Source of the DNA: Promicromonospora sukumoe 327MFSha3.1
GTDB lineage: Bacteria > Actinomycetota > Actinomycetes > Actinomycetales > Cellulomonadaceae
Assembly (NCBI RefSeq): GCF_000385135.1
Contig: NZ_ARQM01000011.1
Coordinates: 372,001 to 436,000 of the forward strand
Direction of reading: 5' to 3'
DNA length: 64,000 nucleotides
Made by a program: the position numbers and the translations under genes. Shown one piece after another: positions 19,852 through 38,585 of this stretch. The notes beneath the pieces were generated by a model. It searched no databases. It was not told where the DNA came from and was given only the letters and a program-made list of their open reading frames with translations. Position 1 is the first letter of the stretch, and the number at the start of each line of letters is the position of its first letter.

Positions 19852-19914
19852 CTTCGAGGCCCGGGTTTCTCCGCTTTGAGCAGGGCTCAAAGCGGAGAAA
19901 CCCGGGCCTCGAAG
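19852..19914. repeat. Long hairpin family C, copy 1
   Basis: A perfect 30-bp stem (19852-19881 with 19885-19914) closed by AGG lies between two convergent genes. The arm begins CTTCGAGGCCCGGG and contains CTCCGCTTTGAG. Related copies are at 27086-27149 and 38518-38585. Confidence 0.9.
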
Positions 19915-19926
19915 TGGATCGGCTCC

Positions 19927-20787
19927 CTACAGGTGCGGCGCCACGTGCTTGTCGTAGCGGTCCAGCACCGTCGCGGCCGTCTCTGCCGTCGGGCGGGACC
20001 AGATCTCCTCGTTGAAGATCTCGGTCTCGACGTCGCCCACGTACCCGGCGTCGCGCACCCAGCCGGTGATCGTCGCGAAGTCGACGTACCCGTCGCCCAC
20101 GTGCCCGCGCGAGTTCAGCGGCTCGGCCGCCAGCGGCAGCGCCCAGTCGCACACCTGGTACGACGCGATGCGGTCCTCCCGCCCGGCCCGCGCGATCGAC
20201 CGCTGCAGCGAGGGGTCCCACCACACGTGGTACGTGTCGACCACCACGCCCACCTCCGACGCCGCGAACGGCGCCGCCAGGTCCAGCGCCTGCGCCAGCG
20301 TGGAGATCACGGCCCGGTCCGCGGCGAAGATCGGGTGCAGCGGCTCAAGCACGATCCGCACCCCGTGCTCGGCGGCGAACGGCACCAGGTCGGCGATGCG
20401 GTCGGCCACCCGGCCGCGCGTCGCCACCAGGTCGCGGTCCACGCCCGACGTCGGGGCGCCACCCGGCGTCGAGCCCACCAGCCCGCCGACCACGAAGACC
20501 AGCTCCGAGGTGCCGATCGTCGCGGCCTCCTCGATCGCCAGCTTGTTGTCGTCGAGCGCGGCGCGGATCCCGGCGTCGTCGGCCGCGGTGAGGAACCCGC
20601 CGCGGCACAGGGACGACGCGCGCAGCCCGGCGTCCGCGATGATGCGCGCCGCCTGCGGCGCGCCGACGGCCTGCACCACGTCGCGCCACGGCCCGACGGC
20701 GCCGAAGCCCGCCGTGGCCGCCGCCTCGCACGCCTCGGCCAGGGTCGCGTGCTTGACGGTCGCGGTGTTCAGCGATGCCCGGCTCAT
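19927..20787 (-). CDS. Sugar phosphate isomerase/epimerase-like TIM-barrel protein
   Basis: A 286-residue AP-endonuclease-2-type TIM barrel (xylose-isomerase-like superfamily). Metal-binding positions are suggested by IVLEPLHP (Glu), VVDTYHVWWDP (Asp/His), YQVCDW and VETEIFNEEIW (Glu). It should isomerise or epimerise a keto sugar or related compound. It is the last gene of a three-gene cassette; its ATG overlaps the DUF993 stop by 4 bp. The substrate is unknown. Confidence 0.82.
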   Translation of the reverse strand: MSRASLNTATVKHATLAEACEAAATAGFGAVGPWRDVVQAVGAPQAARIIADAGLRASSLCRGGFLTAADDAGIRAALDDNKLAIEEAATIGTSELVFVVGGLVGSTPGGAPTSGVDRDLVATRGRVADRIADLVPFAAEHGVRIVLEPLHPIFAADRAVISTLAQALDLAAPFAASEVGVVVDTYHVWWDPSLQRSIARAGREDRIASYQVCDWALPLAAEPLNSRGHVGDGYVDFATITGWVRDAGYVGDVETEIFNEEIWSRPTAETAATVLDRYDKHVAPHL

Positions 20788-22013
20788 GCGGCCGCCCCGT
20801 TCGTCGTCAGGAACGCCCGCAGCCGCGCGGCGGCCAGGGGCGGGTCGAGCAGCATGCCGCAGCCGTCGGCCAGGCGGGCCAGCTCGACCAGGTGCCGCAG
20901 CGACCGGCCGGAGTGCAGGCCGCCCACCAGCGAGAACCCGGCCTGGAAGCCGTTCAGCCAGGACAGGAACGCGATCCCGGTCTTGTAGTAGTACGTGGGC
21001 GCGGCGAAGATGTGCCGCCCCAGTGCCTCGGTCGACGCCAGGATCTTGTGGCCGCCCTCGGCGTCCCCGGCGTCGAACGCCTGCAGGGCCGTGGACGCCG
21101 CCGGGTAGATCGCGGCAAAGATGCCGAGCAGTGCGTCCGAGTGGCCCTGCTCGTCGCCCGCGATGAGCTCCGGGTAGTTGAAGTCGTCGCCGGTGTACAG
21201 CCGCGGCCGCACGCCGTCGTCCGACGCCGGCAGCGCCGCCAGCGCCCGGCGCAGGCCCACTTCGTGGGCGGCGTCGAGCAGCGAGACCTTGACGCCGTCG
21301 ATCCGCGGCTGGTGCGCGCGGATCAGGTCGAGGAACGTCGCGGTGGCGTCGTCCACGGAGTCCGAGCCCCAGTAGCCCGCCAGCGCCGGGTCGAACATGG
21401 TGCCCAGCCAGTGCAGGACGACGGGCTGCTCGGCCTCGGCCAGCACGGCGTCGTACACGCGGGCGTAGTCCTCGGGGCCGCGGGCCACGCGCGCCAGCGC
21501 GCGGGAGGCCATGACGATGACCTGCGCCCCGGCGTCCTGGACCACGTGCACCTGCTCGCGGTAGGCCTCGGTGACGACGGCCAGGCCGGCGTCGCCCGGT
21601 TCGAGCGCCGCGACGACCGCCGGGTCGAGCTGGTCCGTGCCCGCGCCGCACGCGACGCGGGCGCCCACGGAGGACGCCTCGGCCGCCGAGCGCCGGATGA
21701 GCTCCTGGGTCGCCGCCCAGTCGAGGCCCATGCCGCGCTGGGCGGTGTCCATCGCGTCGGCCACGCCGAGCCCGTGCTCCCAGATGCGGTGCCGGTAGGC
21801 GAGTGTCGCGTCCCAGTCGACGACGGCGGGCGCGCCCGGCACGTTCTCCGCGCCGACCTGCGGCACCACGTGGGCGGCCGCGAACGCGATGCGCGAGGTG
21901 ATCGGGCCGGACGGCGTCGTCCACGGGCCGGGGGCGTTCAGCTCGACGGCCTCGGAGCCGGTGACCCGGCCCTCGGCGTCGAACAGGGGGAGGACGACGG
22001 CGACGCCGCTCAC
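20784..22013 (-). CDS. DUF993 family protein (dihydrodipicolinate-synthase-like)
   Basis: A 409-residue cytoplasmic protein that I place in DUF993, a TIM-barrel family distantly like DHDPS/NAL aldolases. Stretches such as MGLDWAATQELIRRSAAEA, PVVLHWLGTMFDP, DGVKVSLLD (a Lys in the position expected for a Schiff base) and YTGDDFNYPELI are visible. An aldolase or lyase role on a sugar-derived keto acid is plausible but unproven. GTG 22013 overlaps the oxidoreductase stop (GTGA). The neighbours are an oxidoreductase and an isomerase, suggesting oxidation, isomerisation and cleavage of one compound. Confidence 0.78.
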   Translation of the reverse strand: MSGVAVVLPLFDAEGRVTGSEAVELNAPGPWTTPSGPITSRIAFAAAHVVPQVGAENVPGAPAVVDWDATLAYRHRIWEHGLGVADAMDTAQRGMGLDWAATQELIRRSAAEASSVGARVACGAGTDQLDPAVVAALEPGDAGLAVVTEAYREQVHVVQDAGAQVIVMASRALARVARGPEDYARVYDAVLAEAEQPVVLHWLGTMFDPALAGYWGSDSVDDATATFLDLIRAHQPRIDGVKVSLLDAAHEVGLRRALAALPASDDGVRPRLYTGDDFNYPELIAGDEQGHSDALLGIFAAIYPAASTALQAFDAGDAEGGHKILASTEALGRHIFAAPTYYYKTGIAFLSWLNGFQAGFSLVGGLHSGRSLRHLVELARLADGCGMLLDPPLAAARLRAFLTTNGAAA

Positions 22014-23161
22014 AGGGTGATCTCCGGGATGTCGATGCGGCGGCCCTCCGCCGACGACTGCAGGCCCAGCTCCGCGAGCTGCACGCCGCGCGCGGCCGAC
22101 AGCAGGTCGTAGCGGTGCGGGCGCCCGGCCACGACGTCGCGCAGGAACTCCTCCCACTGCAGCTTGAAGCCGTTGTCGAGGTCGGCGTTCGCGGGGACGT
22201 CGAGCCACTGGTCGCGGAACGGCTCCGTGACCGGCAGGTCCGGGTTCCACACGGGCTTGGGCGTGTGCGCGCGGTGCTGGGCGCGGCACTCGCGCAGGCC
22301 GGCGACGGCGGAGCCGTGCGTGCCGTCCACCTGGAACTCGACCAGCTCGTCGCGGAACACGCGCACGGCCCACGAGGAGTTGATCTGCGCCACGACGTCG
22401 TCCCCGCCCGGGGTGGTGATGTCGAAGATGCCGTACGCGGCGTCGTCGGCGGTCGCCTTGTACTCGTTGCCCTGCTCGTCCCAGCGGGTCGGGATGTGCG
22501 TGGCGGTGCGCGCGGTCACGGTCTTGACCTGGCCGAGGATGCCCTCGAGCACGTAGTTCCAGTGGCAGAACATGTCGGTGGTGATGCCGCCGCCGTCCTC
22601 GGCGCGGTAGTTCCACGAGGGGCGCTGGGCGGGCTGCGAGTCGCCCTCGAACACCCAGTAGCCGAACTCGCCGCGCAGCGACAGGATGCGGCCGAAGAAG
22701 CCCTCGTCCACCAGGCGGCGCAGCTTCACCAGGCCCGGCAGGTACAGCTTGTCGTGCACGACGCCGACGGTCACGCCGGTCTCGGCCTGCAGCCGGGCCA
22801 GGTCGATGGCCTCGGCGAGGGTCTCAGCCGTCGGCTTCTCGGTGAAGACGTGCTTGCCCTCGCGCATCGCCTTGGACAGGGTCGCGGCGCGCAGGTTGGT
22901 CATCGCGGCGTCGAACACGATGTCGGCGTCCTTGATGGCCGCGTCGACGTCGGTGGTCCAGTGCTCGACGTCGTGCTTGGCCGCGAGCTCCTTGAGCTTG
23001 TCCGCGTTGCGGCCCACGAGCACGGGCTCGACCTGGACGCGCGAACCGTCGGCGAGCGTGACGCCGCCCTGGTCGCGGATCGGCAGGATCGAGCGCACGA
23101 GGTGCTGGCGGTAACCCATGCGGCCGGTGACGCCGTTCATGGCGATGCGAAGTGTGGTCAC
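22010..23161 (-). CDS. Gfo/Idh/MocA-family oxidoreductase
   Basis: A 383-residue NAD(P)-dependent sugar or polyol dehydrogenase. The Rossmann start is RIAMNGVTGRMGYRQHLVRS, and the family EKP motif appears in HVFTEKPTAET; the C-terminal beta-sheet domain follows from about 150. GTG 23161 is chosen because GGAG lies 8-9 bp upstream; longer in-frame versions would run through the operator at 23200. It is the first gene of a coupled cassette with DUF993 and an isomerase. Likely regulated by a LacI-type repressor through the palindrome at 23200. Confidence 0.87.
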   Translation of the reverse strand: MTTLRIAMNGVTGRMGYRQHLVRSILPIRDQGGVTLADGSRVQVEPVLVGRNADKLKELAAKHDVEHWTTDVDAAIKDADIVFDAAMTNLRAATLSKAMREGKHVFTEKPTAETLAEAIDLARLQAETGVTVGVVHDKLYLPGLVKLRRLVDEGFFGRILSLRGEFGYWVFEGDSQPAQRPSWNYRAEDGGGITTDMFCHWNYVLEGILGQVKTVTARTATHIPTRWDEQGNEYKATADDAAYGIFDITTPGGDDVVAQINSSWAVRVFRDELVEFQVDGTHGSAVAGLRECRAQHRAHTPKPVWNPDLPVTEPFRDQWLDVPANADLDNGFKLQWEEFLRDVVAGRPHRYDLLSAARGVQLAELGLQSSAEGRRIDIPEITL

Positions 23162-23199
23162 GGGCGGGACTCCATCGTCGGTGGTGGTGAGCGCCGTCT

Positions 23200-23215
23200 T
23201 GGAATGCGCTTTCCA
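23200..23215. promoter_or_regulatory. LacI-type operator upstream of the Gfo/DUF993/isomerase cassette
   Basis: TGGAATGCGCTTTCCA is a 16-bp near-perfect palindrome 38 bp upstream of the oxidoreductase start. A very similar site, TGGACAGCGCTTTCCC, precedes the other Gfo/Idh gene at 37035. The nearest LacI-family gene is 23615-24919. Confidence 0.65.
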
Positions 23216-23387
23216 GGGGAGCGTAGCGCACGTTTCCGGGTGAGTACATGGGGGCCGGGGTGAGGTGGGGCGGCAGTGGTGCTGCGGGGTGCGGTGCAAC
23301 AGGGCAGCGTGGGCGCGGGCGGCGGTGTCGGCGGTGCGCGGGCCATGGCCCTGGGGACGCGGGCACCGGCGTGACGCGGCTCCGGCT

Positions 23388-23456
23388 CGGCAGTTTGCCC
23401 CGCAGACTCGGCAGTCTGCTGCGGGACGCGGCAGTTTGCCCGGCAGACTCGGCAGT
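23388..23456. repeat. Pair of 28-bp direct repeats
   Basis: A unit starting CGGCAGTTTGCCC and ending ACTCGGCAGT occurs at 23388-23415 and 23429-23456 with one substitution. The second copy runs into the adjoining palindrome. Confidence 0.8.
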
Positions 23457-23506
23457 TGGCATCGAGATCGGCTCAGGCCTGAGCCGATCTCGATGCCAAC
23501 TGCCGA
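23449..23506. repeat. Perfect 29-bp palindrome (hairpin family D)
   Basis: Arms 23449-23477 and 23478-23506 are exact complements without a loop; the centre is GGCTCAGGCCTGAGCC. It lies about 110 bp behind the stop of the LacI gene on the minus strand and could terminate its transcript. Confidence 0.85.
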
Positions 23507-23513
23507 TCGTCGC

Positions 23514-23548
23514 TGGCTGCTGGCTGCTGGCTGCTGGCTGCTGGCTGG
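23514..23548. repeat. Heptamer tandem repeat
   Basis: TGGCTGC is repeated four times and followed by TGGCTGG, five units in 35 bp. It is a short microsatellite with no coding role visible. Confidence 0.85.
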
Positions 23549-23614
23549 TGGTCGCCAGACAGCTGACGGCGTAGTCGCCTCGCTGCCTCCGGTGGCAGGG
23601 TCCGGCGGCGGGGC

Positions 23615-24919
23615 TCAGGGGCGTCGGTTCCTCGCGGCCAGAGCCGGCGTCGACTCCCGGAGCACGACCTCGCCGCGCACCGGGGTGCTCGCGTCGCCTG
23701 CCTTGCCGAGCGCCAGGTCGGTCGCCAGCTCGCCGACCTCCGCGAGGGGGATTCGCACGGTCGTCAGCCCGGGGGAGACGTCGCGCAGGGTGTGGATGTC
23801 GTCGAACCCGGCGACGGCGACGTCGTCGGGCACGCTCAGCCCGGCATCGCGGACGGCGGCCATCGCGCCCACCGCCATGACGTCGTTGACGGCGAAGACG
23901 AGCTCGGGCAGTCGGCCCGCGCTGCCGGCCGCCGCCCCGCGAGCCGCATCGTCAGCCGCCGCCCCGCCGTCCGCCGCCCCAGCCGCCGCGCCAACTGCCC
24001 CCGCATCGGCCCGAGCGATCAGGTCGCGCATTGCGGTGTACCCACCGTCGCGGGTGAACGGACAGGTCAGGACGTCTTGGGGCGCCACGGGGCTGCCCAG
24101 CTCGGCGAGCGCTCCCGTGAAACCGCTGGTTCGGTCCGCCGCCGTCCGGTGGCCCGCGGGGCCGGCCAGCACGGCGAACCGGCGGTAGCCGTGCTCGTGG
24201 AGCGCCCTCGCGAGGTCGGCGGCGCCGTCGGCGTTCGCGATCTCCACCACCGGCAGGCCGCCGATCGGCTGCCCGACCAGCGCGACGCCGCCGCCCGCCG
24301 CCTGGAACGCGTTCAGCGCGGCCTCGAGCGCGCCGGGCTCCGACGCCGGGCCGCCGTCGTCCGCGGCAGAGGCAACGGCCTCCGGCACGCCTGCGGCCTC
24401 CGCCGCGCTGTCGGCCTCCGGCGCATCCGCACCAGCCCCACCCGTACCAGCCTCTCCCGCACCGGCCCCACCTGCCGCATCCGCCCCGCCGTCGCCCCCC
24501 GCCCCGCCGGCGCCCTCCGGCTCCAGCCGCCCGCCCGCGAGGATGATCGCGCGCGACCGCTGCCGCCGTGCCAGCTCGACGAACGCGAGCTCCCGCGCCG
24601 AGCTGTGCTCGGTCGACGCGAGCGTGACGATGAGGCCGGCCCGCTCCGCCGCGCGCGCCACGCCGGCGGCGATCGTGGAGAAGTACGGGTCGGCGATGTC
24701 GTGCACCACGAGCCCGAGCGCGGTGGTGCGGCCGCGGGCCATGGCCTGCGCGCTGGGGTCGGGCGAGTAGGCGAGGCGGCGCGCGGCCTCGAGGACGCGC
24801 TCGCGCAGGTCCTCGCGGACGCTGCGGGTGGCGCTCCCGTTGATCGCGCGGGACGCCGTGGCGAGCGAGACGCCGGCCTCGCGGGCGACCTGGCTCAGGG
24901 TGACGGGGGCGTCGGACAT
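23615..24919 (-). CDS. LacI-family transcriptional regulator with two low-complexity insertions
   Basis: A 434-residue repressor, about 100 residues longer than usual. The LacI helix-turn-helix is at 6-30 (VTLSQVAREAGVSLATASRAING), the hinge at about 50-60, and the periplasmic-binding-like effector domain follows. Two Ala/Gly/Asp-rich segments interrupt the effector domain at about 132-196 and 304-336, each between normal blocks (AIILAGG... and LPELVFAVNDVMAVGAM). They should loop out from the surface. The probable target is the palindrome at 23200 upstream of the Gfo/DUF993/isomerase cassette. ATG 24919 is the only sensible start. Confidence 0.9.
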   Translation of the reverse strand: MSDAPVTLSQVAREAGVSLATASRAINGSATRSVREDLRERVLEAARRLAYSPDPSAQAMARGRTTALGLVVHDIADPYFSTIAAGVARAAERAGLIVTLASTEHSSARELAFVELARRQRSRAIILAGGRLEPEGAGGAGGDGGADAAGGAGAGEAGTGGAGADAPEADSAAEAAGVPEAVASAADDGGPASEPGALEAALNAFQAAGGGVALVGQPIGGLPVVEIANADGAADLARALHEHGYRRFAVLAGPAGHRTAADRTSGFTGALAELGSPVAPQDVLTCPFTRDGGYTAMRDLIARADAGAVGAAAGAADGGAAADDAARGAAAGSAGRLPELVFAVNDVMAVGAMAAVRDAGLSVPDDVAVAGFDDIHTLRDVSPGLTTVRIPLAEVGELATDLALGKAGDASTPVRGEVVLRESTPALAARNRRP

Positions 24920-24979
24920 GAGGTCATCCTGCCGTGTCCGGCGCGCTCGTGGTCGCTAAATGACCCTTCGGGGGTCCGG

Positions 24980-25043
24980 TGATCGGTAGAACGTCAGGTG
25001 GTCGGCACCCCGGGGTGCCGACCACCTGACGTTCTACCGATCA
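24980..25043. repeat. Long hairpin family A, copy 2
   Basis: A perfect 31-bp stem (24980-25010 with 25013-25043) with almost no loop, sharing TCGGTAGAACGTCAGGTGG with the copy at 2539. It lies 3' of the glycosyltransferase gene and 5' of the LacI gene. Confidence 0.9.
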
Positions 25044-25081
25044 TCCGGCGCGGCCGGGATCAACCCCGCGCGCCCGATCCC

Positions 25082-26287
25082 TCAGACCCGTGCCATCCGT
25101 AAACCCGCGTCGCGGTGCGTGCGCTCGATGATGCTCGAGTACCCGGCGATCATCCGGACGTGGCTGAACTTCGGCCGGACGGCGGTGCGTGCCGACTCCA
25201 GCTCCTCGCGCCGGGCCGCGGCCTCGATCCAGGTCGCGGCGATCTCGTCGGGCTCGAACGACGTCACGAAGCCGATCCGCTCGACGATGGAGGGCGCGTC
25301 ACCCACCGGGGTCGTGACGGGCACGGCCCCGCACATCGAGCCCTCGATGAGGCACAGCGGCGCGGCCTCGCCGAACGCCGAGGTGAGCGCGACGACGTCG
25401 GCCGTCGCGTAGACCAGCTCCATGTCGTGGCGCACGCCCAGCAGCTCCAGGCGCTCCAGCAGGCCCGGGCGGTCGCCGAAGATGCGGGCGAGGTCGTCCT
25501 GCAGCGCGGGGTTGGCCGAGCTCATGCCTGCCCCGCACATCTGCACGTGGCCGGTGGGGTCGAGCTCGAGGAACGTCCGGGCCGACCGGAGGAACAGCTC
25601 GGGATTCTTCATCTCGTCGTACCGCGCGGCGTAGACCACGACCGTCGCGTCGGCCGGGATCCCCGCCGCGCCCCGCAGGGCGAGCCGGCGCGCGCCCTGG
25701 ACCGGCCGGAACCGGGCCAGGTTGATGCCGTTCGGCACCACGCGCAGCAGGTCGGCGGGCACGCCCGCCTCCCGGTACGCGTCGCGCGTGGACTCCGCGC
25801 AGCAGACGACGGCGGCCAGGCGGCCCCGCTCCGCCGCGGTCAGCAGGTCGCCGAGGGCGTCGCCCTGGTGCTCCGGGTCGGACCGGTGGAGGCACGCGAT
25901 GACCGGACGCTGCGGGAACGCGTCCTGGTTCACGAGCCGTAGCGGCTGTTCCTTGAGGGACAGGATGACGTGGGAGCCGGCTGCCTGGTGGGCCGCGGCC
26001 CGCAGCTCGGCCTCGGTGAACACCCGCGGGTCGTGATTCGCGTCGGTGCTCCGGCCCAGGGAGCCGATCCGGACGCCCGCGGCGCGCAGGGCGCGGTAGC
26101 GGGGGTCGTCCTCCATGCGCTGGAGGGTGGCCTCGCGCCGGACCTCGTGGTGCAGGCTCAGCACGGAATGCTGCTGACGACCGCCCTGATGCAGACCGGC
26201 AACCACTGTCGAGTGCAGGACACGAGCCCCGCCGCTGAAGAAGCCCTCGTAGAGCGAGAGCACACGCAAACCGTTGCGCTGGATCAC
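25082..26287 (-). CDS. Glycosyltransferase family 4-like protein
   Basis: A 401-residue GT-B enzyme that should transfer a sugar from a nucleotide donor to an acceptor glycan or lipid. The N-terminal loop SLYEGFFSGGARVLHSTVV resembles the acceptor-side start of GT4 enzymes; the C-terminal domain has VVPNGINLARFRP, VVVYAARYDEMKNPEL and the donor-site E-x7-E stretch in FGEAAPLCLIEGSMCGAVPV. GTG 26287 is set by GGAGGTGG 6-10 bp upstream. It stands alone, so the acceptor cannot be named. Confidence 0.85.
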   Translation of the reverse strand: MIQRNGLRVLSLYEGFFSGGARVLHSTVVAGLHQGGRQQHSVLSLHHEVRREATLQRMEDDPRYRALRAAGVRIGSLGRSTDANHDPRVFTEAELRAAAHQAAGSHVILSLKEQPLRLVNQDAFPQRPVIACLHRSDPEHQGDALGDLLTAAERGRLAAVVCCAESTRDAYREAGVPADLLRVVPNGINLARFRPVQGARRLALRGAAGIPADATVVVYAARYDEMKNPELFLRSARTFLELDPTGHVQMCGAGMSSANPALQDDLARIFGDRPGLLERLELLGVRHDMELVYATADVVALTSAFGEAAPLCLIEGSMCGAVPVTTPVGDAPSIVERIGFVTSFEPDEIAATWIEAAARREELESARTAVRPKFSHVRMIAGYSSIIERTHRDAGLRMARV

Positions 26288-26357
26288 AGACACCACCTCC
26301 TGTGCCCAGGGTGAGCCCTGCGGATGTGCGTTACATGGCAATTCGGTTACACGAGGA

Positions 26358-27014
26358 TTACGTATCCGAGGACTTCTGCACAAGGAGGTTCCGGATGTCT
26401 TTCTCCGCCTGAGCGGGTGAGGTTTCGCGGCAGCCCAGCGCGACCCACCGCTCGATCATCGCCGGCTCGGACCGCAGCAGCGAGGTCCCCCGGCGCAGCA
26501 GCGTCACGATCGGCTTGCGCGCCTCGGCGACGTCGCGCAGGAACCGGAACCAGAAGGTGACCAACCGCGGCCGCGACAGGCAGATCGCGTCGGCGAGCAG
26601 CCCCTCGGCGCGACACTCCTCGACGAGCTGCGCCGCGAAGATCCCCTCCGCGATCATCAGCGGCGAGTCCCCGATGTCGAGCCGGCGCACGCCCGTGCGG
26701 CGCGACGTCGGGATGTCGTAGACCGGCACCTCGGCGCGGCCCTCCGTGGCCAGCTCCTGCAGCGCGGCCAGCGCGCCCTTGCCGTCCCAGGTCGCCGGGC
26801 TGTCCCAGTCCACGCTGCCGTAGCGCTGCGGCAGCCCGGGGTGGTCGATGTCGAGGTAGAAGTCGTCGAGCTGGACCACCGGCAGGCCGAGCCGCCGCGT
26901 CAGCGACGTCTTGCCCGAACCCGACGGTCCGGTCAGCAGCACCACGCGCGCGCGGGGGCGGCGCGCACCCGCGGGCAGGTCGAAGAGGGCGGGCTCGGTC
27001 ACGGGGTCGGTCAC
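26358..27014 (-). CDS. Uridine-kinase-like P-loop kinase
   Basis: A 218-residue P-loop NTPase with Walker A GPSGSGKTS at about 29-37 and the family Asp-rich stretch QLDDFYLDIDHPGLP. IAEGIFAAQ is reminiscent of the uridine kinase/PRK active-site region. It probably phosphorylates a small metabolite such as a nucleoside or pantothenate-like compound; the substrate is not clear. GTG 27014 is the start; an in-frame GTG five codons later is possible. Confidence 0.8.
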   Translation of the reverse strand: MTDPVTEPALFDLPAGARRPRARVVLLTGPSGSGKTSLTRRLGLPVVQLDDFYLDIDHPGLPQRYGSVDWDSPATWDGKGALAALQELATEGRAEVPVYDIPTSRRTGVRRLDIGDSPLMIAEGIFAAQLVEECRAEGLLADAICLSRPRLVTFWFRFLRDVAEARKPIVTLLRRGTSLLRSEPAMIERWVALGCRETSPAQAEKDIRNLLVQKSSDT

Positions 27015-27085: not shown

Positions 27086-27149
27086 CCTTCGAGGCCTAAG
27101 TTTCTCCTCTTTGCGGCGGCCGAAAGCGAAGAAACTTAGGCCTCGAAGG
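27086..27149. repeat. Long hairpin family C, copy 2
   Basis: Outer arms CCTTCGAGGCCTAAGTTTCT and complement (27086-27105 with 27130-27149) are perfect; the inner part pairs less well. It lies 24 bp behind the AraC-family stop codon on the minus strand. Confidence 0.85.
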
Positions 27150-27172: not shown

Positions 27173-28000
27173 TCAGCCCCGCTGGTAGCGCCCCGGCGTC
27201 GTCCGCAGCAGACGGCGGAAGTGCCGCGTCAGGTGCGCCTGGTCGTGGAACCCCGTGGCCGCGGCGACGTCGGCCGCGGGCTCGCCGGCCAGCAGCCGAC
27301 GTCGGGCCAGGTCCAGGCGGCGTCCGACCAGGTACCGGTGCGGCGGCAGGCCGAGCTCCCGGGTGAACGAGCGCACCAGGTGCGGCACGGAGACGTCCAG
27401 CTCGGCGGCGATCTCCGCGAGCCGCACCGGCCGCGCCGGGTCGGCGTCGAGCAGGTCGCGGGCCCGCCGTGCCGTGGTGGCCGACGGCGGCTCGCGCGGC
27501 GGCGTCGGGCGTCCGGTCAGGTGCCAGGCCAGACCCTCGGTGACCAGGGCGAGCAGGCTCTCGGCCGCGACGTCCTCGCGCACGGTCAGCGCCCGGTCGA
27601 GGCCCGCGAACCGCGCGCGGAGCGTGTCGTCCGGGACCAGCGGCGCGTCGACGGCCCGCCCGACGAGTCCGTCGTCGAGCACGGTGGGCTCCAGGTAGAC
27701 CACACGCTTGCGGAATCCGGTCGCGGTCACCGACCGGCCGTCGTGCACGACGCCCGGCGGCAGCACGGTCACCCCGGTGCGCCGTGCGGCGTGCTCCTGG
27801 CCGTCCAGGCCGTAGCCGATCAGGCCGCGGTCCACGATCAGCACGGTCCAGGTGTCGTGCGTGTGGGCCGGGTAGGCGTGCTCGTGCCACGCGGCGTGCA
27901 GCACCTCGGCCACGCCCGGGATGCCGGGCCGCCAGGCGCGCACCACGTCCGGGGCCGGGCCGGCAAGGACCGGGCCGGCGGGGTGATCGAGCGGGGGCAC
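27173..28000 (-). CDS. AraC-family transcriptional regulator
   Basis: A regulator of about 275 residues. The N-terminal cupin-like effector domain contains AWHEHAYPAHTHDTWTVLIV; the C-terminal AraC double helix-turn-helix (about 185-275) includes RLAEIAAELDVSVPHLVRSF and DVAAATGFHDQAHLTRHFRR. I use GTG 28000; an in-frame TTG at 28015 would add five residues, and no ribosome site separates them, so the message may be leaderless. It is divergent from the DUF2000 gene 50 bp away, its likely target. Confidence 0.85.
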   Translation of the reverse strand: MPPLDHPAGPVLAGPAPDVVRAWRPGIPGVAEVLHAAWHEHAYPAHTHDTWTVLIVDRGLIGYGLDGQEHAARRTGVTVLPPGVVHDGRSVTATGFRKRVVYLEPTVLDDGLVGRAVDAPLVPDDTLRARFAGLDRALTVREDVAAESLLALVTEGLAWHLTGRPTPPREPPSATTARRARDLLDADPARPVRLAEIAAELDVSVPHLVRSFTRELGLPPHRYLVGRRLDLARRRLLAGEPAADVAAATGFHDQAHLTRHFRRLLRTTPGRYQRG

Positions 28001-28507: not shown

Positions 28508-28508
28508 C

Positions 28509-31443: not shown

Positions 31444-31458
31444 GGGCACTCTCCTTCG

Positions 31459-31508
31459 AGGTCTGACCACACCATAGCCCACTGTGGACAGACCACACCA
31501 CGTACCAT
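31459..31508. promoter_or_regulatory. lut/GntR divergent operators and promoter
   Basis: Read on the minus strand, TGGTCTGTCCA (within 31483-31497, arms TGTGG/CCACA) and TGGTCAGACCT (about 31458-31469) both fit the TnGTnnnACnA-like FadR/LldR half-site pattern approximately. TACCAT at 31503-31508 is a good -10 element seven bases from the regulator GTG, implying a leaderless message that the same operator would repress. Confidence 0.5.
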
Positions 31509-31514
31509 GCACCG

Positions 31515-32213: not shown

Positions 32214-32217
32214 CACG

Positions 32218-32730: not shown

Positions 32731-32779
32731 GCCCACATCCTACGGGAATGTGCGGCGATCAAGAAGAGTTGTGAGTAAT

Positions 32780-32800
32780 ATCGTCTGCTAGACAGACGAT
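32780..32800. promoter_or_regulatory. MarR operator
   Basis: Perfect arms ATCGTCTG and CAGACGAT flank CTAGA. The site overlaps TAATAT (32776-32781), a plausible -10 element, and lies midway between the MarR gene and the fusion gene, so one bound dimer could repress both. Confidence 0.7.
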
Positions 32801-32850
32801 CTGCCGCGACGCGCGGCAGGCGCAGAGCGACGACGAGGGACACCGCACGC

Positions 32851-35160
32851 ATGACCGACTACGGGCACGACCTGCTCTTCGGCACGTTCATCACGCCCAC
32901 CAACGCGAACCCGCAGGTTCCCGTCGGGCTGGCCCAGCTCTCCGAGCAGCTCGGCCTCGACCTGGTCACGTTCCAGGACCACCCGTACCAGCCGTCGTTC
33001 CTCGACACCTGGACGCTCATGTCCTGGGTGGCCGCGCAGACCGAGCGCATCCACCTCTCCGGCAACGTCCTCAACCTGGGCATGCGCCCGCCGGCCCACC
33101 TGGCGCGCGCCGCCGCGAGCCTCGACCTGCTCAGCGGCGGCCGGTTCGAGATGGGCGTGGGCACGGGCGGCTTCTGGGACGCGATGGTCGCGATGGGCGC
33201 CACGCGCCGGACGCCCGGCGAGGGCGTCACCGCCCTCGAGGAGGGCATCGAGATCATGCGCGGCATCTGGGACGCCGAGAACCGCACGCCGCTGCGCGTG
33301 CCGGGGAAGTTCCACCATGTCGACGGCGCCAAGCGCGGCCCGGCCCCCGCGCACGACATCCCGATCTGGCTCGGGGCGTACAAGAAGCGCATGCTCCGGC
33401 TCACCGGGGCCAAGGCCGACGGCTGGCTGCCCTCGCTGCCCTACTTCAAGGACGGCGACCTGGCGCGGGGCAACGCGACGATCGACGAGGCGGCCGAGGA
33501 AGCCGGGCGCTCGCCGAGCGAGATCCGCCGGCTGCTGAACCTGGGCGGCACCATCACCGACCGCTCCACCGGTCCGCTGCAGGGCCCGGCCGACCAGTGG
33601 GTCGAGGAGCTCACCCTGATGGCGCTGGAGGACGGCGTCAGCGGGTTCATCGCCATGGGCGACGACCCCGACCAGATCCGCGCCTTCGCGCAGGAGGTCG
33701 CGCCCGCCGTCCGCGAGGCGGTGGCGGCCGAGCGCAGGTCCAGCGGCACGACGCCGGCTGCCGCCCGCCGGGGGACCGCGGCCCTGGCCGCGCGCCGCGA
33801 CCGGATCGACTACGACTCGCTCCCGCCGGAGCTCGCGGCGCACGCCGTGGAGCCGGGCGACCGCGAGTACGGCGCGGTGCGGCACAACTACCTGCGCTCC
33901 GGCGCGCCGGGCCTGGTGCTGCGGCCGCGGGGCGTCGACGAGGTCGCCTCCGGCCTCGCCTGGGTGCAGAAGCAGGACGTCGAGTTCGCCGTCCGCTCGG
34001 CCGGGCACGGCATCTCCGGCCGGTCCACGAACGACGGCGGCGTGGTGCTCAGCCTCAGCCGCATGCGCTCGGTCGAGGTGGTCGACGAGGCCACGCGCCG
34101 GGTGCGGATCGGCGCAGGGGCCACCTGGGGCGAGGTGGCCGAGGTGCTCGCGCCGCGCGGGTGGGCCATCACGTCGGGCGACTACGGCGGCGTCGGCGTG
34201 GGCGGGCTCGCCACCACCGGGGGCATCGGGTTCCTGGGTCGGCTGCAGGGCCTGACGATCGACCACGTCGTGGCCGCCGAGGTGGTCACGGCGGACGGCC
34301 GGGTGCTGCACGCCTCCCGCGACGAGCACCCCGACCTGTACTGGGCGCTCCGCGGCGCCGGCGGCAACATGGGCGTCGTCACGTGGATCGAGATCGAGGC
34401 CGGCGCCGTCGGGGACGTCGTCTTCTCGCAGATGACGCTCGACGCCACCGACACCGCGGGCCTCCTCGAGCGCTGGGGCGCCACCGTCGAGGCGGCACCG
34501 CGCGGGCTCACGTCGTTCATGATCCTGGGCTCGGGGCGGCGCGGTCAGCCGCCGATGGCGCAGCTCCTGACCGTGTTCGCGGCGGAGGGCGCCGACGCCG
34601 ACCCGGACGAGGCGATCGCCCAGCTCGAGCTGCTGGCCGACGCCGGCCCGCTGCTGGGGCACCAGGCCCAGCTCCTGCCGTACTCGGGCGTGGTGCGCAA
34701 GGAGGGCACGCACCACTCCGGCGGCGGCGACCCGTCGGCGCGGTCCGGCCTGCTGACCCACCTGGACCAGGGCACGAGCCGCGCGATCGAGCGCCTGCTC
34801 GCGTCGGGCGAGTCGTACTTCACGTCGATCCGGGCGACCGGCGGCGCGGCGCACGACGTCGCCCCGGACGCCACGGCGTACGCGCACCGGCACCAGAACT
34901 TCGCGCTCTCGGCGCTGGCGAGCGACCAGGACCGGCTCAACCAGGCGTGGGACGGCGAGATCGGGCCCGTGATGGACGGCTCGTACCTGTCCTTCGACAC
35001 CGACAGCCGGCCCGAGCGGCTGCTGGAGGCGTTCCCGGAGCCGACCCTCACGCGCCTGCGGCAGGTGAAGGCGGTCTACGATCCGTCGAACGTGTTCCGG
35101 ACGAACTTCCCGATCCCGCCGGCCGACCCGGCGGAGGCCTCCGCGGGGAGCGACGCCTGA
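32851..35160 (+). CDS. Fused luciferase-like monooxygenase / FAD-linked oxidase
   Basis: A 769-residue protein joining two flavoenzymes. Residues about 8-290 are a luciferase-like (LLM class, FMN or F420) oxidoreductase: LGLDLVTFQDHPYQPSFLDTW, LLSGGRFEMGVGTGGF and IPIWLGAYKKRMLRL. After an Ala/Arg-rich linker (about 295-330), residues 335-760 form a VAO/PCMH FAD domain with SAGHGISG (His386, the likely covalent FAD anchor), GGVGVGGLATTGGIGFLGR and a berberine-bridge ending YDPSNVFRTNFPIPP. No Cys stands at the second flavin-linking position, so attachment should be through His only. It is probably a detoxifying or catabolic enzyme induced through the divergent MarR. Confidence 0.85.
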   Translation: MTDYGHDLLFGTFITPTNANPQVPVGLAQLSEQLGLDLVTFQDHPYQPSFLDTWTLMSWVAAQTERIHLSGNVLNLGMRPPAHLARAAASLDLLSGGRFEMGVGTGGFWDAMVAMGATRRTPGEGVTALEEGIEIMRGIWDAENRTPLRVPGKFHHVDGAKRGPAPAHDIPIWLGAYKKRMLRLTGAKADGWLPSLPYFKDGDLARGNATIDEAAEEAGRSPSEIRRLLNLGGTITDRSTGPLQGPADQWVEELTLMALEDGVSGFIAMGDDPDQIRAFAQEVAPAVREAVAAERRSSGTTPAAARRGTAALAARRDRIDYDSLPPELAAHAVEPGDREYGAVRHNYLRSGAPGLVLRPRGVDEVASGLAWVQKQDVEFAVRSAGHGISGRSTNDGGVVLSLSRMRSVEVVDEATRRVRIGAGATWGEVAEVLAPRGWAITSGDYGGVGVGGLATTGGIGFLGRLQGLTIDHVVAAEVVTADGRVLHASRDEHPDLYWALRGAGGNMGVVTWIEIEAGAVGDVVFSQMTLDATDTAGLLERWGATVEAAPRGLTSFMILGSGRRGQPPMAQLLTVFAAEGADADPDEAIAQLELLADAGPLLGHQAQLLPYSGVVRKEGTHHSGGGDPSARSGLLTHLDQGTSRAIERLLASGESYFTSIRATGGAAHDVAPDATAYAHRHQNFALSALASDQDRLNQAWDGEIGPVMDGSYLSFDTDSRPERLLEAFPEPTLTRLRQVKAVYDPSNVFRTNFPIPPADPAEASAGSDA

Positions 35161-35287
35161 CTCGTCCACCTTGTCACGCATGGTTGTGGATAACTTCACC
35201 CGCGTGTGGGTGAGAACCCGTAGGTTCGATCGCGTCCGGTTCACCCGGACGCGATCTGACCGTTGAACGACCACCGCAGGGGTACCC

Positions 35288-35902
35288 ATGAACCTTGTCG
35301 CCGCCTCGCGCCTTGCGCGCGAACTGATGGACCAGCACGGGCTGAAGGCCTGGACGTTCGAGTTCGACGACGCCGTGCGGCGCGCCGGGATGTGCAGCTA
35401 CGGAAAACAGCGCATCAGCCTGTCGGCGCCGCTCACCCGCATCCACGACGAGCGGGAGGTGCGGGACACGATCCTGCACGAGGTGGCGCACGCGCTCGCG
35501 GGCCCCAAGGCCAAGCACGGGCCGGCCTGGCGCGAGGTGGCGGTGCGCATCGGGTGCTCGGGGCGGCGCTGCGTGGACCCGTCGGCGCCGTCGATCGACG
35601 GGCCGTGGGTCGGCACGTGCCCGTCCGGCCACCGGGCCACCCGGTTCCGGCGGCCGTCCGGCATCATGTCCTGCCGCTCGTGCGGGCCCCGGTTCGCCCT
35701 GGCCAACCTCATCGCCTGGACCTACAAGGGGCGCAACGCGGCGATGGGGGAGCGGTACGACAGCCAGCTGCGCGGGGCGTTCCGCGAGGTGGGCGAGGCG
35801 CCGGCCACCGGGCCGGGCGCCGAGGAGCGGGTGGCGCGGGTCGCGCGGGAGCGGGCGTCCGGCACCGTCATGGAGCCGTTCGACCTCGGCGCGCTACGTT
35901 GA
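35288..35902 (+). CDS. SprT-like zinc metallopeptidase domain protein
   Basis: A 204-residue protein with the metallopeptidase motif HEVAH (His64, Glu65, His68) in TILHEVAHALAGPKAKHGPAW, followed by a zinc-ribbon-like set of cysteines (CSGRRC, CPSGH, CRSCG). This is the layout of bacterial SprT-like proteins, related to the eukaryotic DNA-protein-crosslink protease Spartan; the bacterial function is not settled. The FabH-like gene starts 4 bp behind its stop. Confidence 0.88.
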   Translation: MNLVAASRLARELMDQHGLKAWTFEFDDAVRRAGMCSYGKQRISLSAPLTRIHDEREVRDTILHEVAHALAGPKAKHGPAWREVAVRIGCSGRRCVDPSAPSIDGPWVGTCPSGHRATRFRRPSGIMSCRSCGPRFALANLIAWTYKGRNAAMGERYDSQLRGAFREVGEAPATGPGAEERVARVARERASGTVMEPFDLGALR

Positions 35903-35906
35903 CCCC

Positions 35907-36941
35907 ATGGCTTCCGCTCTCACGCTCCCGTCCGGCGCAGCCGGCTCCCGCATCGTCGGTCTGGGGCACCACCAGCCACCGCAGACGCTCACGAACGACG
36001 ACATCGCGCAGCGGGTCGAGACCAACGACGAGTGGATCCGGTCGCGGACCGGCATCGTCACGCGGCACGTCGCCGCGGACGACGTCACCGTCGCCGACAT
36101 GGCGACGGCGGCCGCCGAGCACGCGCTGGCGGACGCCGGCCTGACCGCCGACGCCGTCGACCTGGTGATCGTCGCGACCGCCACGAACGACGACCGCTCG
36201 CCGAACACGGCCGGCCGGGTCGCCTACGCACTGCACACCGGCGTCCAGCCGGGTGCGTCCACGCCCGAGGGTGAGGAGGCGCCGGACCTGCGCAACGTCG
36301 TGGGCCCGGCGGCGCTCGACCTCAACGTGGCGTGCTCCGGGTTCGCGCACGGCATCGGGGTGGCCGACCAGGCCATCCGCACCGGCTCCGCGCGCACCGC
36401 GCTGGTCATCGGCGCCGAGAAGCTCACGGCGTACACCGACTGGACCGACCGCTCGACGTGCATCCTCACGGCCGACGGCGCGGGTGCGGCCGTGCTGCAG
36501 GCGGCGGACGCGCCCGCCGTCGGGCCCGTGGTGTGGGGCACCGAGCCGGAGCTCACGCCCGCGGTGCGGATCGAGGCGCCCGAGGTCAAGTTCCAGCAGG
36601 ACGGCCGCTCGGTGTTCAAGTGGGCCATCACGCGGGCCGCCGATCGGGCGCGGGACGTCGTGGCGGCGTCCGGGCTGAGCCTCGACGACATCGAGGTGCT
36701 CGTGGCGCACCAGGCCAACCTGCGGATCATCGAGCCGCTCGCCAAGGCGCTCGGCATGGAGAGCAAGGTCGTCGTCACGGACATCACGGAGTCGGGCAAC
36801 ACGTCCGCGGCGTCGATCCCGCTCGGGCTGTCCAAGTGGTGGCACGCGGGCAAGATCCCGGCGGGCGTGCCCGCGCTGCTGTTCGGGTTCGGCGGCGGGT
36901 TCGCGTGGGCCGGCCAGGTGGTGATCACGCCGGAGCGGTGA
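35907..36941 (+). CDS. FabH-like 3-oxoacyl-ACP synthase III
   Basis: A 344-residue thiolase-fold condensing enzyme with the complete KAS III triad: Cys143 in NVACSGFAHG, His268 in VAHQANLRI and Asn298 in SGNTSAAS. Compared with typical FabH there is an extra segment between the NTAGRVAYALH and ALDLNVACSGF blocks (about 112-134). It starts fatty-acid or polyketide chains from acyl-CoA and malonyl-ACP. No other fatty-acid gene is near, so it may be a secondary KAS III for branched or special primers. Confidence 0.85.
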   Translation: MASALTLPSGAAGSRIVGLGHHQPPQTLTNDDIAQRVETNDEWIRSRTGIVTRHVAADDVTVADMATAAAEHALADAGLTADAVDLVIVATATNDDRSPNTAGRVAYALHTGVQPGASTPEGEEAPDLRNVVGPAALDLNVACSGFAHGIGVADQAIRTGSARTALVIGAEKLTAYTDWTDRSTCILTADGAGAAVLQAADAPAVGPVVWGTEPELTPAVRIEAPEVKFQQDGRSVFKWAITRAADRARDVVAASGLSLDDIEVLVAHQANLRIIEPLAKALGMESKVVVTDITESGNTSAASIPLGLSKWWHAGKIPAGVPALLFGFGGGFAWAGQVVITPER

Positions 36942-36955
36942 GTGGTCGGAGGGCA

Positions 36956-36971
36956 TGGACAGCGCTTTCCC
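36956..36971. promoter_or_regulatory. LacI-type operator upstream of Gfo/Idh gene
   Basis: TGGACAGCGCTTTCCC, 64 bp upstream of the oxidoreductase start, closely resembles the palindrome at 23200. GTATCGTTTCAAT follows at 36978. Confidence 0.55.
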
Positions 36972-37034
36972 GGCGCCGTATCGTTTCAATCCCATCCACC
37001 CGACGTCGACGACGACCGAAGGAGCTCTCCACCG

Positions 37035-38435
37035 ATGCCTGAGCCGACCACCGAGCCGATCACCGGTCCGACCCATGAGCCCGTTCCGCCGTCGGGGCCG
37101 CTGCCCGAGGGTCGCCGCCGCTACGCGGTGGTCGGCACGGGGCACCGCGCGTCGATGTACGTCGACGCCCTGATCGGCACGCACGCCCCGGACGGCGAGA
37201 TCGTCGCCTGGGTCGAGCCCAATCCCGTGCGCGCCGCGGCCTACGAGGCGCGGGTCGCGGCCGCGCTCGGCGGCATCCGCCCCGTGTACCAGCCAGACGA
37301 CCTGGAGAAGGCGATCGCGGAGCACTCCGTGGACCGCGTGATCGTCACCTCGGTCGACCGCACGCACGCCGACCTGGTCACCCGCGCCCTGCGGGCCGGC
37401 GCCGACGTCGTCGTGGAGAAGCCCATCGCGGCGCACCCCGACCAGGCCCGGCAGATCGTGGACGCCGTGGCCGAGACCGGCCGCGACCTGGTCACGACGT
37501 TCAACTACCGCTACTCGCCCCGCAACAGCGCGCTGCGCGAGGTGATCGCGAGCGGCGAGATCGGGAAGGTGCTGTCGGTCCACTTCGACTGGGCCCTCGA
37601 CACCGTGCACGGCGCCGACTACTTCCGCCGCTGGCACCGCGAGAAGGTGAACAACGGCGGCCTGCTGGTGCACAAGTCGAGCCACCACTTCGACCTGGTC
37701 AACTGGTGGATCGACGGCGTGCCGCGACGCGTCTTCGCCTCCGGCGGCCGGCGCTTCTACGGCGACGACGGCGCCCACGAGACGGACTACGAGCCCACGG
37801 CCGGCGAGCGCGCCCTGAACGACCTCGGCATCGATCCCTGGCAGCTCGACGTCGAGAACAACGAGTGGCTGTCCACCCTGTACGGGCCGGAGGCCCAGGC
37901 GGTGGACGGCTACGTGCGCAACCGGTCGGTCTTCGACGCGGGCATCACCACCGAGGACACGCTCGGGCTCGTCGTCGAGTACGAGGGCGGCGCGCTGATG
38001 ACCTACTCGCTCACCGCCCACTCGCCGTGGGAGGGCTACCGCGTGGTGGTCAACGGCGCGCGCGGCCGGGCGGAGCTGGAGGTCGTCGAGCGCGGTTCCG
38101 TGGAGTTCGGCGACGGCCGGGCCGCGATCCTCGACCCGAGCGCCACCGAGGTGTTCGAGGAGGACGTGGTGCGGCCCATCGGCGAGCGGCTCGTGGTGCA
38201 GCGGCACTGGGAGCGCGCCGAGGAGCGGCCGATCGTGCGCGGCGGCGGTGGGCACGGCGGCGGCGACGCGCTGCTGCTGGCCGACGTGTTCAAGCCGTCC
38301 GACGAGGCCGACCCGCTGGCCCGCGCGGCCGGCTACGTCGACGGCGTCCGCGCGTCGTCGGTGGGCTACGCGGGCAACCGCTCGCTGGAGACGGGCGACC
38401 CGGTCCGCATCGAGGACCTGGACCTGGGCATCTGA
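37035..38435 (+). CDS. Gfo/Idh/MocA-family oxidoreductase
   Basis: A 466-residue NAD(P)-dependent oxidoreductase, longer than the usual 330-390 because of a Pro/Thr/Glu-rich N-terminal tail (1-30) and an extra segment in the C-terminal domain. The nucleotide fold starts YAVVGTGHRASMYVDAL and the EKP motif is VVVEKPIAAHPDQ. A conserved C-terminal stretch is NNGGLLVHKSSHHFDLVNWWIDG. GAAGGAGC precedes ATG 37035. It stands alone behind a LacI-type operator. Sugar or sugar-acid dehydrogenation is likely; substrate unknown. Confidence 0.87.
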   Translation: MPEPTTEPITGPTHEPVPPSGPLPEGRRRYAVVGTGHRASMYVDALIGTHAPDGEIVAWVEPNPVRAAAYEARVAAALGGIRPVYQPDDLEKAIAEHSVDRVIVTSVDRTHADLVTRALRAGADVVVEKPIAAHPDQARQIVDAVAETGRDLVTTFNYRYSPRNSALREVIASGEIGKVLSVHFDWALDTVHGADYFRRWHREKVNNGGLLVHKSSHHFDLVNWWIDGVPRRVFASGGRRFYGDDGAHETDYEPTAGERALNDLGIDPWQLDVENNEWLSTLYGPEAQAVDGYVRNRSVFDAGITTEDTLGLVVEYEGGALMTYSLTAHSPWEGYRVVVNGARGRAELEVVERGSVEFGDGRAAILDPSATEVFEEDVVRPIGERLVVQRHWERAEERPIVRGGGGHGGGDALLLADVFKPSDEADPLARAAGYVDGVRASSVGYAGNRSLETGDPVRIEDLDLGI

Positions 38436-38465
38436 CGGTCCTCCGGGTCCGGGTCCGGGTCCGGA
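38436..38465. repeat. Short GGGTCC tandem
   Basis: Behind the oxidoreductase stop the hexamer GGTCCG/GGGTCC is repeated about three times. A trivial microsatellite. Confidence 0.6.
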
Positions 38466-38517
38466 GTTGCCCCTCCCCGGCCAGTTTCCCGGGGCAGCCC
38501 CTTCTTGGGTGGCCCTT

Positions 38518-38585
38518 CCCTTTTGAGGCCTAAGTTTCTTCGCTTTGAGCCGTCTCAAAGCGAAGAAACTTAGGCCTCAAAAGGG
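38518..38585. repeat. Long hairpin family C, copy 3
   Basis: A perfect 32-bp stem (38518-38549 with 38554-38585) around loop CCGT, containing GAGGCCTAAGTTTCTTCGC. It separates the convergent Gfo/Idh and AEC genes. It has the A/T-rich outer end CCCTTTT/AAAAGGG, the closest to a terminator of the set. Confidence 0.9.

Follow-up and report, generated by a model that had tools for sequence, protein, structure and literature searches.

Family C, a covarying hairpin repeat at gene ends in Promicromonospora, and its sister families

A stretch of 64,000 nucleotides (nt) from the genome of Promicromonospora sukumoe 327MFSha3.1 (contig NZ_ARQM01000011.1, positions 372,001 to 436,000; here called the window) holds three long hairpin-forming repeats of related sequence, family C, each lying directly 3' of a gene. 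What are these repeats, and why is a change on one arm so regularly matched on the other? A preliminary description of the window had offered two causes, selection on a structure or copying of the inverted repeat; each found support in our analysis, and the two are not mutually exclusive. Family C is a dispersed, almost wholly symmetric hairpin repeat of about 70 nt belonging to the genus Promicromonospora, and it is not a lone oddity, being one among at least eight recurring families of like build. Our reading, to which we assign a probability of roughly 0.6, is that family C and its sister families are gene-end hairpins that spread in the manner of REPINs (REP doublets forming hairpins; REP, repetitive extragenic palindrome), are exchanged for one another and are kept alike; a role in termination or 3'-end protection is what we infer from them.

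Family C and its paired changes

The three copies of the window, none of them assigned to a strand, are the following (bp, base pairs).
19852 to 19914: family C copy 1, perfect stem of 30 bp, 3-nt loop, CCCGGG variant, 55-nt core; between convergent genes
27086 to 27149: family C copy 2, perfect outer stem of 20 bp, inner stem mismatched
38518 to 38585: family C copy 3, perfect stem of 32 bp, 4-nt loop; between convergent genes

Counted from the foot, copy 1 has 30 unbroken Watson-Crick pairs, and copy 3 has 32, or 34 in the RNA fold, where one of them is a G-U pair. In copy 2, the 20 outer pairs enclose a mismatched part (CTCCTCTTTG / GAAAGCGAAG). The three stems had been described as perfect, which was right for copies 1 and 3 and, for copy 2, only over the outer 20 bp; likewise, the paired differences named between the copies were confirmed, but the inner stem of copy 2 departs from them. 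As RNA, copies 1, 2 and 3 had folding energies of -65.6, -51.7 and -61.6 kcal/mol (z-scores -12.0, -8.0 and -12.8), and none of 200 shuffles of each copy folded equally well. With up to three mismatches allowed, the window contained the 15-mer AGAAACTTAGGCCTC six times, against 0.18 occurrences expected. On direct reading, no T-tract followed copies 1, 2 or 3, in agreement with the preliminary description, which had also rightly called all three longer than ordinary terminators. Its remark that they belong to no described family was half right: no Rfam covariance model gave a match at its gathering score across the whole window, whereas the kind of repeat closely resembles the REPINs described in the available passages of PMC3116915.

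A covariance model was built from 40 copies (one of which, row L031, was present in shortened form) and used to search the P. sukumoe genome (6.25 Mb, containing the window) and the other genomes of a genus set of 13, labelled G000 (P. sukumoe) to G012. The P. sukumoe genome gave at least 150 strand matches, a count that is a lower bound in every genome where it was reached, and these corresponded to at least 77 places by a hand count over the matches listed, instead of only the copies first noticed. Within the genus, 11 of the 13 genomes had family C matches, G007 having four strand matches. A survey of 150 genomes of the taxonomic family, made with stricter filters under which weak matches are lost, found 12 with matches: 11 Promicromonospora and G122, a member of another genus (1 among 137 non-genus genomes) with three weak matches, the best at E 1.9e-8. 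G122 is a 79%-complete draft, and its matches could reflect transfer, an old relative or contamination. A hairpin-pattern scan of named genomes, which may omit records of the P. sukumoe genome itself, returned 64 stretches, all in Promicromonospora (P. kroppenstedtii, P. umidemergens, P. iranensis and sp. MEB111).

These distributions bear on the possibility that the hairpins are ordinary intrinsic terminators of independent origin, alike only through GC-rich composition. Their position and missing U-tract do recall mapped Streptomyces 3' ends, as far as the available passages on those describe them. Independent origin is, however, contradicted by at least 77 places in one genome and by a distribution of matches that, under strict filters, is nearly confined to one genus, and the hairpins have G+C contents of 63.5, 56.2 and 48.5% (copies 1, 2 and 3), compared with 72.4% for the surrounding stretch. 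We find this explanation hardly credible.

The core was 54 nt long in 89 of the 92 listed family C copies. Within one genome the arms were alike while the loop and apical stem varied, less so in G002 and G003, and the invariant arm blocks were C14, T20, C22, T23 and T30 plus their partners. In the 40 copies of the model, two-sided changes were found at 17 of 33 pairs, a result matched by none of 500 shuffles. In a larger alignment, comprising 74 of 90 reference copies and drawn from ten genomes, 25 of the 33 pairs had changed on both sides. Of its 2442 cells, 95.1% were paired and 266 were changed on both sides, versus 70.8 in shuffles, and pairing was at most 54.0% once the structure was slid. 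The proposal that pairing is conserved through matched changes on the two arms was thus borne out, with strong covariation by these shuffle tests.

Most species carried a paired consensus of their own, GAGGCC in P. sukumoe and GAGACC, GAGGTC, GAGTCC or GAGACCGAGG in other species. Copies were sampled from previously retrieved loci only, and candidates with more than seven arm mismatches were dropped. The consensus GAGGCC was common to P. sukumoe, G004, G008 and G012; GAGGTC was found in G002 and G003, mostly GAGTCC in G009, and GAGACCGAGGTTGCT in G011, while in G001 the core was GACGTTTCTCGG and the outer hexamer varied. All outer 15 pairs were intact in 28 of the 39 copies sampled from P. sukumoe, 49 of 54 in G004, 16 of 17 in G008, 8 of 12 in G010, 16 of 18 in G009, 17 of 18 in G011, 7 of 11 in G001, 6 of 15 in G012, 5 of 11 in G002 and 6 of 11 in G003. 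Exact counts on both strands gave the same picture of separate types: the 15-mer GAGACCTAAGTTTCT (GAGACC type) occurred 134 times in G010, 2 in P. sukumoe, 4 in G004, 5 in G008, 4 in G012 and 0 in the remaining eight genus genomes, and the 15-mer GAGGCCTAAGTTTCT (GAGGCC type) 114 times in P. sukumoe, 98 in G004, 20 each in G008 and G012, 10 in G002, 6 in G003, 3 in G010 and 0 in the remaining six.

All nine family C copies of a 400-kb stretch of P. sukumoe lay in gene gaps, and eight of them had family C at the corresponding gap of G010, as matched by a loose pattern from which unrelated sequence was removed by eye, three of the eight sites resting on a single matched flanking gene. Seven of these counterparts were of G010 type on both arms, and the other was an older-looking mixed copy. 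At the site of copy 2 (27086), the inner 28 nt were identical between P. sukumoe and G004, and the outer arms had changed on both sides. Orthologous copies therefore carry the paired type of each species, indicating that copies at shared sites changed in concert; this could have come about by ectopic gene conversion, could be the result of re-copying from a master, or could be due to selection exerted by a factor that reads the arms.

A different account of the paired shifts is that each family is the palindromic site of a nucleoid, repair or recombination protein, with which it co-evolves. Invariant arm blocks beside a free loop and apical stem, a core of nearly constant length, the switch of an entire genome to another paired motif, and the arrangement at 27086 would all suit such a site. 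Two-sided change at 25 of 33 stem positions would be atypical for it, at least eight families of like build and placement would need as many proteins, and the position just past stops would be left unexplained. We regard protein sites as an improbable basis for the family.

Placement at gene ends and number per gap

Genes were called and stems with loops of up to 14 nt were searched in four 400-kb stretches, from P. sukumoe, G010, G009 and G006; a later set of stems allowed loops of up to 30 nt and added a G004 stretch, giving five genomes. Among gaps of at least 60 nt, hairpins of score 18 or more were present in 19 of 32 (P. sukumoe), 24 of 37 (G010), 5 of 19 (G009) and 9 of 34 (G006) convergent gaps. 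The corresponding numbers, in the same order, were 21 of 111, 20 of 112, 10 of 131 and 13 of 106 for co-directional gaps, and 1 of 47, 1 of 50, 1 of 43 and 0 of 56 for divergent ones. In the set with loops of up to 30 nt, the midpoint of hairpins of that score fell within a called gene in 4 of 49, 6 of 56, 1 of 22 and 0 of 29 cases, again in that order, and in 0 of 25 in G004. Co-directional hairpins, all families together, started at a median of 20 nt past the stop, with quartiles at 9 and 42.5 nt; of the 112 hairpins, 94 were closer to the upstream stop. The 115 family C copies in gaps were distributed as 63 convergent, 47 co-directional and 5 divergent, and the co-directional ones started at a median of 38 nt past the stop.

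Gene models of the window agreed with the earlier statement that the three copies lie 3' of genes and two of them between convergent genes, family C copies in gaps being mostly convergent or co-directional. Copy 1 lies between the convergent stops 19814(+) and 19927(-). Copy 2 starts 23 nt past the stop of a regulator of AraC type at 27173(-), and a co-directional gene comes next. Copy 3 stands between the convergent stops 38435(+) and 38691(-), 82 nt past the first. The neighbouring features are these.
18747 to 19814, plus strand: gene 5' of copy 1, its 3' end adjoining; no Pfam match at E 0.001
19927 to 20787, minus strand: AP_endonuc_2, xylose-isomerase-like TIM barrel (Pfam, gene model); convergent gene ending at copy 1
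26358 to 27014, minus strand: next co-directional gene past copy 2; weak AAA_16 and PRK matches
27173 to 28000, minus strand: AraC-family regulator (Pfam, gene model), its 3' end adjoining copy 2
37035 to 38435, plus strand: GFO/IDH/MocA oxidoreductase (Pfam, gene model), its 3' end before copy 3
38590 to 38667, no strand: imperfect inverted repeat of family D type (GGTCGAGC..GAGACC), arms of 33 nt, 82% complementary; adjoins copy 3
38691 to 39731, minus strand: Mem_trans transporter (Pfam, gene model), convergent, ending at copy 3
The family D-type repeat beside copy 3 is possibly a decaying second gene-end hairpin.

Gaps rarely held two hairpins. The 254 convergent gaps of the five genomes contained 95 hairpins, with two per gap in 3 cases where 18.6 were expected by free length, and none of 1000 simulations was as low; the 1068 co-directional gaps contained 108 hairpins, with two per gap in 2 cases and 15.5 expected. 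Under even placement in gaps of at least 40 nt, 3 of 173 convergent gaps were doubled versus 18.4 expected (0 of 2000 simulations as low), and 2 of 649 co-directional gaps versus 8.4 expected (9 of 2000 as low).

On our reading, the RNA of family C would form a very stable stem past the stop codon, which would most likely halt RNA polymerase and/or block 3' exonucleases without a U-tract, like the U-poor hairpins mapped at 3' ends in Streptomyces. Being palindromic, the hairpin could serve both genes of a convergent pair. Much of this placement could also be produced by selfish REP- or REPIN-like palindromes that have no host role, multiply by means of a mobiliser and survive where they are least harmful, past stops and away from promoters, their pairing being kept because a mobiliser works on the single-stranded hairpin. 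REPIN-like anatomy (available passages of PMC3116915) points that way, and so do the REPs of other bacteria, which share the convergent and co-directional bias and the proximity to stops in the passages available from PMC3733652, the patchy copy number within the genus, from 0 to at least 150 strand matches, and a tandem pair at one G010 gap. That copies do not pile up in gaps speaks against purely selfish repeats, an explanation that we consider rather unlikely on this and on the evidence of exchange and of transposases given below.

Sister families, exchange at orthologous gaps and the level of selection

Grouped by common 11-mers, the 174 hairpins that scored at least 16 formed 51 clusters, the largest having 30, 22, 20, 15, 10, 10, 7 and 6 members; family C is the third-largest. 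The largest (30 of 174) is the CGTGTCAGACGNNCAGGTC family, and stop codons of convergent genes can fall within its arms; that the hairpin supplies stop codons is an impression gained by eye. Another family, D, is represented by the following copies.
Window, 257 to 310: family D (GGTCGAGCTTGTCGAGACC)
Window, 48363 to 48415: family D
L191:11508: family D
L214:10832: family D
The P. sukumoe genome contained 113 exact 19-mers of family D; of 198 genomes sampled across the order, 4 had matches to it. Single direct units occur alongside it.

Different families were found at the same gene ends, a different family being defined by no common 8-mer on either strand or fewer than two common 9-mers, so that diverged relatives may be scored as different. 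At the copy-2 gap, family C was present in G002, G003, G004, G008, G010 (two tandem copies), G011 and G012, unrelated hairpins stood in G005 and G006, and no hairpin in G001; the gap measured 1.9 kb in G007, and G009 was unplaced. At the copy-3 gap, G008, G009 and G010 had family C, and G001 and G011 unrelated hairpins; the gap of G007, 18 nt long, had no hairpin, the anchors of G004 were 5.3 kb apart, and five genomes gave a single anchor, as did most genomes at the copy-1 gap, where G009 and G012 had unrelated hairpins. P. sukumoe and G004, about 95% identical over aligned pieces, had hairpins on both sides in 8 of 17 convergent gaps, and the families differed in four of the eight: family D in P. 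sukumoe stood opposite the GTGTCAGACG family (two gaps) or the GTTGAGTGCTGG family (two gaps) in G004. The exchange of family C with unrelated hairpins was seen at distances larger than that between these two genomes. We propose that replacement was the process behind the mixed families.

Occupancy of orthologous gaps was then compared after removal of same-family pairs. Co-directional gaps of at least 40 nt were occupied in both genomes above expectation in three comparisons: P. sukumoe and G010 had hairpins in both genomes at 6 gaps, in one only at 6 and 4, and in neither at 61 (p 0.0006); the numbers were 7, 9 and 1, and 39 with G006 (p 0.0003), and 6, 14 and 4, and 40 with G009 (p 0.04). 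With co-directional gaps of at least 80 nt, p was 0.003, 0.002 and 0.08 for G010, G006 and G009, respectively, and 1.0 for G004. In convergent gaps of any length, p was 0.02 for G004, 0.21 for G010, 0.07 for G009 and 0.02 for G006, and it was 0.67, 0.59 and 0.21 for convergent co-occupancy in three pairs that did not include P. sukumoe. Selfish repeats would need a shared insertion preference or tolerance for different families to meet at the same co-directional gap. Sites that are filled in one genome and empty in the other, which selfish spread would also produce, were seen among the gaps listed with protein ends unchanged: 137 nt with family C in P. sukumoe versus 11 nt in G006, and 3 nt in P. 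sukumoe versus 61 nt with another family in G010. Gaps with and without a hairpin exist, and no family C pair was close enough for exact boundaries or a target-site duplication to be read.

Under our preferred reading, at least eight hairpin families would compete for the same gene-end sites, copies would arrive there, and related species would come to hold hairpins of other families at the same gene ends. As copies are kept alike within a genome, each species would drift to its own paired consensus. Copying and homogenisation could be the work of ectopic gene conversion, of a factor with sequence specificity or of a mobiliser that has escaped recognition.

That hairpins as a rule insert into the loops of others was rejected: the flanks of 140 family C and 52 GTGTCAGACG family hairpins paired no better than shuffled ones. 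The flanks of family D paired above shuffled (mean 4.91 versus 4.14; 1 of 200 shuffles as high), mainly through the 2 of 23 copies that lie inside the loop of another hairpin. Further inverted repeats of the window are of other sequence. Perfect palindromes of 30 and 32 bp at 2539 to 2602 and 24980 to 25043 (TGRTCGGTAGAACGTCAGGTGGTCGGCA..), the second loopless, form a separate family, of which a copy lies in one G004 gap and a look-alike at the copy-2 gap of G005. The family CGTTGACCACAGCA..CTGCCAG, at 17953 to 18015 and 57060 to 57122, has paired differences and also lies in gene gaps. More long inverted repeats stand in gaps at 23449 to 23506, 46647 to 46705 and 55860 to 55923, and, judged by eye, the one at 46647 seems related, though diverged, to the GTTGAGTGCGGG hairpin that occupies the corresponding gap in G010.

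If the hairpin matters as RNA, single-step changes should yield more G.U pairs than A.C mismatches on the transcribed strand of co-directional gaps. In a pooled, de-duplicated set, G.U numbered 72 versus 49 A.C (p 0.045), and 46 versus 28 at score 18 (p 0.047); convergent gaps, which should show no bias, gave 55 versus 68 (p 0.28). The direction fits selection at the RNA level, a weak indication among related copies.

Several results weigh against our reading. The first set of hairpins showed no strand bias (G.U 40 versus A.C 32, p 0.41), nor did the strictest threshold, score 22 (25 versus 17, p 0.28); with respect to maintenance at the DNA level only, the first count was thus unbiased and the pooled one leans to RNA. 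No swap between P. sukumoe and G004 involves family C, and the mixed-family pairs in their co-directional gaps of at least 40 nt gave 0 gaps filled in both, 4 and 3 in one, and 24 in neither. Convergent gaps of at least 40 nt were non-significant in all four comparisons (p 0.15 to 0.56). G005 and G006 were without any family C match in the covariance-model search, and 13 of the 32 long convergent gaps of P. sukumoe had no hairpin of score 18. A U-tract, taken as at least six T within the following 12 nt, came after 1 of 112 co-directional hairpins (mean 2.0 T). The gene models come from an in-house codon-frame caller, not from annotation. Finally, the 74 aligned copies had been chosen by the structure model or by a filter of at most seven arm mismatches, which biases them toward pairing; such a filter favours paired cells, yet it leaves the two-sided changes unexplained.

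A bolder extension, which we put forward only tentatively, is that gene-end hairpins are exchangeable parts copied without a recognised transposase, some of them displaced within about 5% coding divergence, and that they evolve in concert pair by pair, perhaps through a sequence-specific copying or recognition factor that acts on the hairpin. If this were true, terminators would no longer belong to single genes but would make up a genomic layer that moves and homogenises itself. There is no settled account of how RNA polymerase comes to a halt at U-poor sites in the GC-rich actinobacteria, and dozens of near-identical hairpins are natural replicates for that question; the exchange of families and the paired shifts amount to a natural experiment on gain, replacement and homogenisation of gene-end hairpins, and point toward hairpin spread without a recognisable RAYT (REP-associated tyrosine transposase).

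Comparison with known systems

The REPINs of Pseudomonas, in the passages available from PMC3116915, are like family C in being dispersed extragenic hairpins of fixed length, with conserved inverted ends, a variable middle and compensatory changes. Family C has the same layout of conserved inverted ends, fixed spacing and a variable, hairpin-forming middle, and also the REP habit of many dispersed, extragenic copies biased to convergent and co-directional gaps. Unlike REPINs, it forms one continuous stem, of at least 30 bp when perfect, and is nearly always single per gap. Three REP/REPIN features were missing. No match to the Y1 transposase/RAYT family (PF01797) was found in any of the 13 genus genomes at E <= 0.001, while 5 of 14 control genomes matched, a result that ruled out RAYT-driven REPs and argues against selfish spread. 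The 206 family C copies, with 412 feet between them, had no GTAG/CGTC tag at a constant place; CGTC was the most frequent at any one position, with 16, and the consensus feet were TCCCCTTC..GAAGGGGA. Lastly, the arms by themselves folded no better than shuffled sequence: six consensus arms gave -0.5 to -5.0 kcal/mol versus shuffled means of -2.0 to -5.3, three of them better and three worse. Family C repeats in a REPIN-like way yet lacks these three features, and we therefore call it a REPIN-like gene-end hairpin family without a recognisable RAYT.

The CGTC-tagged REPs of PMC3733652 resemble it in having no linked transposase and in lying near stops in convergent and co-directional gaps; they differ by stems of 8-9 bp and the CGTC tag, and the available text does not name Actinobacteria. 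With regard to miniature inverted-repeat transposable elements, the 100 listed exact arm places all stood at hairpin spacing or at family C places, except C10:689712, where an exact arm has a decayed partner arm (no insertion-sequence search was made). Paired DNA uptake sequences consist of a short motif and form terminators with a U-tract. The hairpins described here differ from them by arms of 25-35 nt and by the existence of several families; the likeness is that, in Neisseria and Haemophilus, a dispersed motif forms gene-end hairpins where it stands in inverted pairs (available passages of PMC2267715). The stem-loop sequence families of that same account are also repeated throughout genomes, some are suggested terminators, and Mycobacterium and Corynebacterium are included; in its available text, the terms Streptomyces, Actino- and convergent are absent, and neither family exchange nor species-wide paired shifts are described. 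The REPs predicted by RepRanger (PMC12306157) are extragenic palindromes without a T-rich tail, and three Actinomycetota genomes are included; the available passages set out a rule for detection and not this family, and Promicromonospora, RAYT and convergent are absent from its available text. Among open-licence papers, as far as their text was available, no account of such repeats in Promicromonospora was found, and the letters of family D occurred in none.

The canonical build of a Rho-independent terminator, a GC-rich stem followed by a U-tract, was not the rule, being seen in 1 of 112 co-directional hairpins when all families were taken together. In Streptomyces, according to the available passages of PMC12207403, the hairpins at 3' ends exceed others in length and stability, are poor in U and covary, and their authors liken U-poor ones to I-shaped terminators (PMC12207403, PMC8269248); of 535 highly structured 3' ends, 353 were followed by at most two U within 8 nt (available passages of PMC8269248). 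Copied, exchanged and homogenised families, as proposed here for Promicromonospora, do not appear in these passages. In build, the hairpins of Promicromonospora agree with the I-shaped, U-less terminator: a very stable hairpin, soon past the stop, with no U-tract.

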